From the NCBI GenBank assembly GCA_016201275.1, contig JACQDB010000086.1:1-64000 (forward strand): DNA of 64,000 nt. The letters are read 5' to 3'. This document shows, one piece after another, positions 48,809 to 58,823 of the stretch. Origin of the DNA: Acidobacteriota bacterium (GTDB taxonomy: Bacteria; Acidobacteriota; Blastocatellia; UBA7656). A program made the position numbers and the translations under genes. Position 1 is the first letter of the stretch. Each line of letters opens with the position of its first letter. The notes under the pieces were generated by a model. That model did not search any database. It was not told the origin of the DNA and saw only the letters and a program-made list of their open reading frames with translations.

Positions 48809-50818
48809 TTATTCAAAAACAACCTCTTTCAAATCGTCAAAGGCGGAGACCGCTTCACTGCTTGAAGGTTTTTGCACATATTGCATGGCGCTGAAGATAC
48901 CGGCATTCTCGACGATGGTTTCGCCGATGCGAAAACCGGCGAGGGTGGATTCGGCGATCATCCAGGTCTGGCCATCGCGGGTGAACGACAGGCCATTGAG
49001 ATTTTCGAAACGGCCTTGTCGCACCGCTACAGTGATATGCTCGTTGTAATAAACCAACCGATAATCTTCGCCTATCTGTTCCAGCAGCGAGGCCAGCAAA
49101 ATGGATTTGCTGCTGCAATCGCCGCGCCGGGTCAGCAGGGTTTCATCCGGTCTTTTCAAAATTTCGCCTTTGAATTTGGCCTCCGCTTCATCGTAAGCGA
49201 TCTCCTGCGAAACGAAATCCACCAACTTCTGAATGCGGCTTTCGCGCAGTCCACCCATATCAGTGGCGCTGGCGCTGGCGGTGAGCGCGGCAGCCAGACG
49301 AGTCAAAGATGGTTCGTTGGCACGCGCCACAAAGGCTCCGTGATTGCCAAAGACATTCAGTTGATTGTGAGTCTTATCCTTCGAGAAGATTCGCATATGT
49401 CCGCCATACACGCTCTGATCGGTCATGAAGTTCGAGAGTTCCTGTATGGAGAGGCGATAGGTAGCTCTGGCATACTTCATTTCTATATAGCTATATGGGT
49501 TGATGCGTATATTTTCAGCGGGAATCATCAGCGGCGATTTGTTCGCCCAATTGACGGTTGTCAAGCGGTAATAAGCCGACTCTCTTTTTCTGGCGGCCTC
49601 GCCATAAGTTGTACGCGTCGGGTCATAAGCATAATCGGAAACTGCTCGTTGCAGATTATTCGCACCGGCATCGGCAGTATTCGCTAATAAAAACAGCACT
49701 TCGCCTTTGTCCTGGTCGTAAGCGATTTCATCAACCCCGACAAAAAGTTGTTTCCGCATCTCGTCATAGCCGAATCTGGGGTCGCGGTCTTTGCCCAGAT
49801 ACACCAAGAGATTTTCGCGCATCCCGGCGACAGAATTGGGGTCTCGATTCGGCACCTTCAGATACTTGACCTTGAGCGCTTGTTCGCCGATGGTCTCCAA
49901 TCGCTGTTTGTTGAGCAGCCCACGAATGGCAAAGAGAAAAATGCCAGCGCCAATCACCAAGACCGCCAGCACAATTTTCAGCTTGGCACCGAGCGACGAT
50001 GACGCGGTAGAAAATTTTGGCGGCGGCACAAAGGGCGCATAAGGCATACCGACGCGCCCCTGCGGAGCGTAAGGGTAGTGGCCTGGATAAGCCGTTGGAT
50101 ATGACCCCGGATAAACCGGCGGCGCATACGGATTGAACGCTTGCCCGTTGGCATAGGCTCCCGGCGCAGGAGGTTGGCCTTGATACGCTTGAGGACCGCT
50201 GAAGCCCTGTGGATTCGCATACCGCCGTGGTTGTGAGTCGGCTTGCGGATTCGCATACGGCGCGGCATTTGGCGGCGGCGGTTGCTGACGGTACGGCAAA
50301 TGATAATGCGCCGCTTGCGGATTTGCATACGGCACGCCAGTCGGCGGCGCTTGATGATAAGGCGAACCATTCATCGGCACGGATGGATTCGTATTTGCCG
50401 AACCATTCATCGGCGCAGGTTGATTAGCGTTCGGGTAGCCATTCATTGGCGCGGATGGATTTTGATATGGCGGTTGTGATGATTGAGCATTCGGCGCTAA
50501 CGGATAAACGCGAGGGTCTGGCGGTGGCGCAGGCCAATGATTTTGCGGCGCGGCTGGCTGCGAATACGGCGCGTGATTGGGCGATGCCAATGGCTGCGAA
50601 TACGACGCGTGATTTTGCGGCGGCGCAACTGCAAGCGGTGATGAATGATTCATCTGCGCTTGTGGCGGCAAACTCGGCGACAAGCGCTCCGGCAAACTTG
50701 GTGAATTGACAGGCGGTCGAGGCGCTTGCAGGGGCGTCTTGACCGGCGCGCTACATCTCCGGCACACACAAGCGGTGTCCCAATTTACTAACCCGCAAGA
50801 GCCACACTTAATGCTCAT
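48809..50818 (-). CDS. Zinc-ribbon, disordered, TM, transglutaminase-like protein
   Basis: A 669-residue multidomain protein. Residues 5-22 form a RanBP2/DZR-like zinc ribbon (CGSCGLVNWDTACVCRRC). Residues about 30-270 are a Pro/Gln/Asn/Tyr/Ala-rich low-complexity region with repeated PYANPQA, APMNG and NHAPYSQP units. One membrane helix lies at about 283-302 (KIVLAVLVIGAGIFLFAI). The outer part ends in a transglutaminase-like core: Cys568 in RRGDCSSKSILLASLL, His594 in NEHITVAV and Glu623 in WMIAEST, where an Asp is usual. Peptidase, amidase or cross-linking activity are possible. GGAG precedes the ATG. Confidence 0.85.
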   Translation of the reverse strand: MSIKCGSCGLVNWDTACVCRRCSAPVKTPLQAPRPPVNSPSLPERLSPSLPPQAQMNHSSPLAVAPPQNHASYSQPLASPNHAPYSQPAAPQNHWPAPPPDPRVYPLAPNAQSSQPPYQNPSAPMNGYPNANQPAPMNGSANTNPSVPMNGSPYHQAPPTGVPYANPQAAHYHLPYRQQPPPPNAAPYANPQADSQPRRYANPQGFSGPQAYQGQPPAPGAYANGQAFNPYAPPVYPGSYPTAYPGHYPYAPQGRVGMPYAPFVPPPKFSTASSSLGAKLKIVLAVLVIGAGIFLFAIRGLLNKQRLETIGEQALKVKYLKVPNRDPNSVAGMRENLLVYLGKDRDPRFGYDEMRKQLFVGVDEIAYDQDKGEVLFLLANTADAGANNLQRAVSDYAYDPTRTTYGEAARKRESAYYRLTTVNWANKSPLMIPAENIRINPYSYIEMKYARATYRLSIQELSNFMTDQSVYGGHMRIFSKDKTHNQLNVFGNHGAFVARANEPSLTRLAAALTASASATDMGGLRESRIQKLVDFVSQEIAYDEAEAKFKGEILKRPDETLLTRRGDCSSKSILLASLLEQIGEDYRLVYYNEHITVAVRQGRFENLNGLSFTRDGQTWMIAESTLAGFRIGETIVENAGIFSAMQYVQKPSSSEAVSAFDDLKEVVFE

Positions 50819-51136
50819 CGAAATCTCCGCATAAACGAATTTTCACTACTTGATTTTGATAGCGCAGAAAGACTTTTTCATTGTAAGTCGCCGAGGCCGT
50901 ATGTAAACAGTAATCTTTGGTTGCCGCGCTCGATCCATGCCCGATAAAAATGCCGCCAACGCAACGCCCCGCAAGGGAACAAACGACGAGAGAATTCGGG
51001 CATCATGGATCGCGGAAAAAATTATCCAGAGGAAACGGTTGCGCCGCCGCCTGGCCCACTTTTGGATTTCCAGCTTTGGTTGTACACTAACGGCAAAACC
51101 AATTTTCAAGCAACGCTACAAGGAGGCCGCATCACC
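50819..51136. other. Divergent spacer without recognised sites
   Basis: A 318-bp gap between two divergent genes. Both promoters should lie here, but no convincing -35/-10 pair stands out. No repeat is seen. Confidence 0.4.
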
Positions 51137-57245: not shown

Positions 57246-58823
57246 TTACACAGCGACCGAGGGTCCCGGATAGTCAGAGCCGAGTTTCGAGGCATCGCCT
57301 TCGGCCAGCGTGTTGACCATCTCATCGTAGAAATAATCGAACTTCGCCGCCACCGAAGGCGCGACTCGTTTCTCGTACATCTGACGACTGCGGTCTATGT
57401 CATCTTTCAAGCGGTCATAAAGGTCTTTGTGATTGCGGCCTTCGTTGACCTTCTGTTCGTTGTAGAGTTTGATTTCACTGACCAGCAAGCGTGCAAAGCG
57501 GCGCGCATCGTTGTGCAATTTCTCTTCATCTTCAGAGACCGTTGGGCGAGGCGGCATCGGCGTCACCACGGCAGCCGGTGGCGGCGTATTCACCACTGGC
57601 TCGAAAAATTGCGGCGTCTGTAGGGGCGGCGCTGGCGGTGGCGTGGTCACCACAAATTGCGGTTCATAAGATGGCGCGGCGTGGGCTTCAGGGGCGGACG
57701 GCGTTTCGACCACCACAGGAAAACTCGGCGCGGTTTGAAAAGCGGACGGCGCTTCTGGTGCAGGCGGCGTCAACTGAATCTCTACAGGAGGAACATGATT
57801 TTCAGCGGAGGCCGGTGGTGACGACCAGTAGCGCGAATCGGGTTGCGGTGGCGCAGGCTCGTGGTGCTGAAAAGCGGTGGGCGCAGGCGCTTCGGTCGGT
57901 TGCACGAAGAAGTTTGGTGGCGGCGGCGCTTGCACAGCGGGCGCGGGAGGCGGCGCAATGGGCGCAGGTGGTGGCGTGCTGACCGGGCTTGGCGCGTTAA
58001 ACGGAGCGGTTGGCGTGGGCAGAGGTGCGCTGACCGCAGGTGCGCTCGGTGGCGGCGCAGGTTTAGCGGCAGGCTGCGCGACTTCGCCCATGCGTGCGCG
58101 CAGCGACACCAGTTCCACCACCAGACCGGCAGTGTGTACCAGCAATTCAATGGCTTCGACGCTGATGGAATCTTCGCCGCGATCTGCGGAGTCCGCATAA
58201 AAAACTGCCGCCGCTTTGCCTCTGACTTTCAGCGGCACAACCAGCACACGCTGCGGTTGGGCGTTGCCAATACGCCCGAAAATCAAGGTGTTTTCAGCTT
58301 GTTGATCGGCAGCACCATAACAGGTTTGCGAGGCGCTGATGGCAGCGCGCAAGGCGGTATCGGGTTGCAGCGAGACCGACAGGCCGCGTATGGAATTGTT
58401 GCCCACGCCATCATCAAAACCTCTGGCAGCCCAGGCCAGAGCGTTACCGCCTTTGACGACGAACAGCACAACACGCGGGGCAAAGTTTGCCGCACGCGAT
58501 ACCAGGGCGTTAAGGACTTCGGCTTGATTGCGTTGCTCATCGAGTTCGGCAACCGAATCCCGGAGCAGAGCGATATCCGCGCCCAGCCGCACACTTGAAG
58601 TAGTGGCTTGATCAATTTCAGCAGTCACCTGCGCGACGATTTGCGCCGCCAGCGGATCGGCCTCCGGCAACAGCGACGCCGCGTCGGTGCGCTCCAACAG
58701 CCGAGTAAAAGATTCGTTGACCTCTCGTTGCAGATGACTGATGTCTTGTTCCAACACACTAACGCGAGAGCGCACAAGCTCCTCGATTTGTTGGCGCAGT
58801 TTCGTCTCACGCTCGTTTTCCAC
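57246..58823 (-). CDS. Coiled-coil/GAF-like/proline-rich protein
   Basis: A 525-residue cytoplasmic-looking protein. Residues 1-50 are a coiled coil (RQQIEELVRSRVSVLEQDISHLQREV). Residues about 95-240 resemble a GAF domain (VVLFVVKGGNALAWAARGF, VLVVPLKVRGKAAAVFYAD). Residues about 248-435 are strongly Pro/Ala-rich. The C-terminal 90 residues (HNDARRFARLLVSEIKLYNEQKVNEGRNHKDLYDRLKDDIDRSRQMYEKRV) form a charged helical module that looks conserved. There is no kinase or effector domain, so an adaptor role is inferred. The start is GTG at 58823, with AGGAGG seven bases upstream. Confidence 0.82.
   Translation of the reverse strand: MENERETKLRQQIEELVRSRVSVLEQDISHLQREVNESFTRLLERTDAASLLPEADPLAAQIVAQVTAEIDQATTSSVRLGADIALLRDSVAELDEQRNQAEVLNALVSRAANFAPRVVLFVVKGGNALAWAARGFDDGVGNNSIRGLSVSLQPDTALRAAISASQTCYGAADQQAENTLIFGRIGNAQPQRVLVVPLKVRGKAAAVFYADSADRGEDSISVEAIELLVHTAGLVVELVSLRARMGEVAQPAAKPAPPPSAPAVSAPLPTPTAPFNAPSPVSTPPPAPIAPPPAPAVQAPPPPNFFVQPTEAPAPTAFQHHEPAPPQPDSRYWSSPPASAENHVPPVEIQLTPPAPEAPSAFQTAPSFPVVVETPSAPEAHAAPSYEPQFVVTTPPPAPPLQTPQFFEPVVNTPPPAAVVTPMPPRPTVSEDEEKLHNDARRFARLLVSEIKLYNEQKVNEGRNHKDLYDRLKDDIDRSRQMYEKRVAPSVAAKFDYFYDEMVNTLAEGDASKLGSDYPGPSVAV

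Follow-up and report, generated by a model that had tools for sequence, protein, structure and literature searches.

Locus and domain organisation

The window, the 64,000-nucleotide stretch of an Acidobacteriota genome (class Blastocatellia) analysed here, carries on its minus strand a gene encoding a 669-residue protein (50818–48812 plus stop codon; 48809–50818 with the stop included). A GGAG stretch lies just upstream of the start ATG. A promoter-like element also lies upstream of the gene, from a consensus scan in which three such elements were found and 2.3 were expected by chance. The encoded protein is composed, in order, of an N-terminal C4 zinc finger, a Pro-rich linker of 242 residues, a single transmembrane (TM) helix and a transglutaminase-like domain (Table 1). 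The open reading frame, these domain parts and the residue positions assigned to them in a first-pass annotation of the locus were confirmed in the sequence.

Table 1. Features of the transglutaminase-like gene and its product, in window coordinates.
Feature	Residues	Position	Strand	Basis
Promoter-like TTTACA-16-TACAAT, upstream of gene		50880..50907	-	Consensus scan; weak
C4 zinc finger	1–22	50753..50818	-	Sequence; C-x2-C-x3-N-x6-C-x2-C
Disordered linker rich in Pro/Ala/Gln/Asn/Ser/Tyr	29–270	50009..50734	-	Composition; 36-bp periodicity
TM helix	about 280–298	49925..49981	-	Kyte–Doolittle hydropathy maximum 2.74
Putative extracytoplasmic domain	330–669	48812..49831	-	24-homologue alignment, AlphaFold2 model, structural matches
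Pfam Transglut_core match	527–592	49043..49240	-	24.6 bits; gathering cut-off 23
Predicted catalytic Cys	568	49115..49117	-	Invariant (C239 of alignment A3); N-terminus of model helix 239–252
Predicted catalytic His	594	49037..49039	-	Invariant (H265 of A3); start of model strand 265–271
Predicted third triad residue, Glu	623	48950..48952	-	Invariant (E294 of A3); adjoins model strand 288–293

The neighbours of the gene in the window encode a nitrilase-type hydrolase, a divergent open reading frame without assignment and an amino-acid-oxidase-type FAD enzyme, with a lytic transglycosylase farther away. Homologues from Pyrinomonadaceae (L054–L075) lie in a conserved housekeeping block made up of an AIR-synthase-related gene, the homologue itself, a formyl transferase gene, rnpA, yidC, jag and mnmE; these neighbours are absent around the window's gene. 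An assignment of function from gene neighbours was rejected, since the neighbours shared by the homologues are housekeeping genes and differ from those in the window. Neither set of neighbourhoods contained a pointer to a substrate or to a conserved functional partner. Elsewhere in the window, positions 57249–58823 (minus strand) encode a 525-residue protein with a long Pro/Ala-rich middle region and no Pfam hit.

Fold of the enzyme domain

Residues 330–669 comprise a transglutaminase-like core preceded by a part of its own (residues 330–490) that distinguishes this family from the rest of the transglutaminase-like superfamily (PF01841, Transglut_core; DUF553, PF04473). With that superfamily the domain shares the core fold, the Cys–His–acid order and a profile match above the cut-off. 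Transglut_core and DUF553 were the only families listed for the window's protein in a Pfam scan at E ≤ 1, and Transglut_core was matched by 23 of the 24 homologues. Together with the structural comparison, these matches uphold the transglutaminase core proposed in the first-pass annotation.

An AlphaFold2 model built from the 24-sequence alignment reached a pLDDT of 84.7 and a pTM of 0.87. It replaced an earlier model from eight sequences, which was too poor to use (pLDDT 68.7, best Foldseek E-value 0.27). The closest structural match to the newer model by VIA-align is LapG, a member of the bacterial transglutaminase-like cysteine protease (BTLCP) family (Z 11.5 over 141 residues, 15% identity), followed by human transglutaminase 3 (Z 10.0), a Cytophaga putative cysteine protease (Z 9.8) and both PNGase and streptococcal TglA (each Z 9.4). 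Foldseek gave weaker support, with a best E-value of 1.4e-3; a sequence-profile search against solved structures returned no significant match, and the BTLCP family profile did not match the window's protein in the Pfam scan. The first-pass annotation had named a predicted structure lacking a transglutaminase fold as grounds for refutation. The model instead aligns with transglutaminases and LapG at Z scores of 9–11.5, and on its evidence the enzyme domain has a transglutaminase/papain fold. Transglutaminase-like proteins of the axonemal nexin–dynein complex (8th8_H, 9y6s_8G and 9e5c_1m) are among the nearest matches by both sequence and fold, and their alignment spans nearly the whole model (48812–49831, minus strand).

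The catalytic triad

Residues Cys568, His594 and Glu623 are invariant across the 24-sequence alignment and occupy the positions given for them in the first-pass annotation. In the model, a helix begins at the Cys and a strand at the His, and the Glu follows just past a later strand. At the site where the window's protein has 'TWMIAEST', a paralogous core from this genome has 'YWFDPT'; Glu623 therefore stands in for the Asp that is usual in the W..D-P-T motif, and by this third residue the family differs from the superfamily at large. The first-pass annotation had treated this substitution as an oddity. However, according to a published survey of the papain-like enzymes, the canonical third residue can be Asn, Gln, Asp or Glu (PMC10318531). 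Because Glu623 is invariant in the family and Glu is among the residues so listed, the sequences indicate that it is a family trait and not an anomaly.

The same observations bear on the possibility that the fold has been retained without catalysis and serves to bind peptides or partners, as in menin or erythrocyte protein 4.2. Several of the structural matches are indeed non-catalytic (menin, protein 4.2 and the axonemal proteins), and the replacement of Asp by Glu could be read in the same way. Such a role is nevertheless unlikely, as the Cys, His and Glu residues have stayed invariant in 24 diverged homologues (33–38% identity to the query over the C-terminal part) and Glu is itself among the usual third residues of the superfamily (PMC10318531).

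Distribution of the enzyme family

Within the class, 24 of 162 genomes hold a homologue, that of the window included, and all matches in a 396-genome sample of the phylum fell inside the class. A scan of genome contigs with the single protein found no relative; relatives were recovered with a profile. Most of the named public records come from Acidobacteriota (Pyrinomonadaceae/Blastocatellia); of two others, one carries the title Chlorobiota and the second Candidatus Peribacteria (titles as deposited). The enzyme gene is absent from six further genomes belonging to the same family as the window's, and its distribution is consequently patchy. The proteins form an uncharacterised, membrane-anchored, transglutaminase-like family with an invariant Cys–His–Glu triad, centred on Blastocatellia and not named separately in Pfam or NCBIfam.

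Membrane anchor and topology

The membrane anchor proposed in the first-pass annotation was recovered as one hydrophobic helix at about residues 280–298, and an N-terminal hydrophobic segment was found in all compared homologues. The charges flanking the helix are +2 and +1. As these are almost balanced, the orientation does not follow from the positive-inside rule.

An indication of orientation comes from homologue L053 (5893–6999; record titled Chlorobiota bacterium, as deposited). In place of the TM anchor, this protein starts with MNFKRILFLSGISGIILNLGLAGC; the sequence is a lipoprotein signal peptide whose lipobox reads LAGC, and the enzyme domain of L053 is therefore exported. Since L053 carries this signal, an extracytoplasmic enzyme is the likely arrangement for the family, and the domain of the window's protein likewise probably faces the outside of the membrane, as the first-pass annotation had supposed. 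The reverse arrangement, with a cytoplasmic catalytic domain and the finger and linker outside, is left undecided by the charges beside the helix, but it is quite improbable given that a lipoprotein signal peptide directly precedes the same domain in L053 and that LapG, the closest fold match, is periplasmic. The zinc finger argues in the same direction, as fingers of the C4 type are normally found folded in the cytoplasm.

The zinc finger and the linker

The finger is formed by residues Cys5, Cys8, Cys19 and Cys22. Its spacing, written as the regular expression in Table 1, matches the window's finger and five related fingers, and residues Lys4, Cys5, Cys8, Gly9, Asn12, Cys19 and Cys22 are common to all six when aligned. 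The spacing of the Cys and Asn residues is that of the RanBP2-type zinc finger (PF00641), although the Trp that precedes the first Cys is missing from the window's finger. In the Pfam scan this finger had no match at all, and the related fingers fall below the gathering cut-off of Zn_ribbon_RanBP (best 25.8 versus 27 bits).

The linker is a low-complexity, nearly uncharged segment composed of 26% Pro, 14% Ala, 9.5% Gln and 8.3% each of Asn, Ser and Tyr. It contains a tandem array of a 36-bp (12-residue) unit at 50538–50622. Its self-identity at a lag of 36 bp is 0.404, whereas 500 codon shuffles averaged 0.308 and never exceeded 0.364, as expected if the linker had grown through duplication of the 36-bp unit. 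No relatives of the linker were detectable elsewhere in the genome.

The first-pass annotation had described this region as prion-like. The classic criterion for a prion domain is at least 30 Gln/Asn residues per 80-residue window. When Gln and Asn were counted in this manner, the linker contained at most 19 in any 80 residues, falling short of the classic value; with Pro at 26%, the region is better described as Pro-rich, and the prion-like label is unsupported. It is very unlikely that the tail truly forms condensates or prions and so clusters the enzyme in the membrane, for although the region is rich in Tyr and almost free of charge, its Pro content is high, its Gln/Asn count low and the long linker missing from other members of the family.

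A recurrent finger–linker–TM module

The first-pass annotation had also regarded the domain order as unusual and had proposed a search for it across genomes. The N-terminal arrangement was found to be recurrent. The same finger forms the N-terminus of at least three other proteins in the window's genome, and matches to the finger profile are present in 26 of 29 related genomes. By hydropathy, 25 of the 31 finger proteins inspected in the genome and class, the window's protein included, have a TM segment. Finger–linker–TM proteins of Blastocatellia such as L077, L078, L079 and L108 resemble the window's protein in having a C4 finger, a Pro/Gln/Asn/Tyr/Gly-rich linker and then a TM segment, but their C-termini are other membrane domains and not transglutaminase-like. 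The linkers of L077, L078 and L079 are 199, 155 and 146 residues long, respectively, and consist of 71–82% Pro, Gln, Asn, Tyr, Gly, Ser and Ala.

Among the enzyme homologues, the finger also occurs in L049 and L050, where a short linker separates it from the TM helix, whereas the remaining 21 have a short N-terminal tail and no finger. The family tree would imply two changes for the finger, but the window's branch is very long. As the finger–linker–TM arrangement recurs and these two homologues join it to the same enzyme domain, the domain order is not unusual. Literature searches on the finger–linker–TM–transglutaminase order found no report of it.

Finger–linker–TM is a swappable N-terminal module on membrane proteins of the window's genome and class; what sets the window's gene apart is solely the long linker joined to this enzyme domain. 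The protein is a new variant built from ordinary parts rather than a new type of system. Should the module prove to dock onto a common partner, a single experiment on it would inform on many unannotated proteins. As separate observations, L015 belongs with L077, L078, L079 and L108 to a set of unrelated membrane proteins with an N-terminal C4 finger and a linker rich in Pro, Gln, Asn, Tyr and Gly, and its own linker contains long repeats (GGQPGYGG).

Proposed function

Taken as a whole, the protein is probably a single-pass membrane thiol enzyme with its catalytic domain outside, a docking and spacing module of finger and linker in the cytoplasm, and a linker grown by duplication of a 36-bp unit. 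The C-terminal transglutaminase/papain-fold domain would be located outside the cytoplasmic membrane, where an acyl-enzyme would form on Cys568, with His594 oriented by Glu623; this chemistry is established for the superfamily and predicted here. The putative enzyme would have as its targets the amide bonds in envelope proteins or peptides. The zinc finger and disordered linker would stay in the cytoplasm and serve generically for docking and spacing, a role suggested by recurrence of the module on unrelated membrane proteins; many such proteins of this bacterial class carry the same module. Duplication of the 36-bp unit would then have lengthened the linker in the window's gene.

A more speculative extension, to which only a small probability is attached, is that the finger and the long Tyr/Pro/Asn-rich linker act as a cytoplasmic clustering or docking device that gathers many membrane proteins of the class, the outward-facing thiol enzyme included, into common assemblies.

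For the membrane thiol enzyme itself, a protease or amidase appears only slightly likelier than a crosslinking transglutaminase, a choice that the sequence leaves undecided; the slight balance towards proteolysis arises because the nearest fold is that of the protease LapG. LapG resembles the predicted enzyme in being an extracytoplasmic thiol enzyme, but it is soluble and periplasmic, whereas the window's protein is anchored in the membrane.
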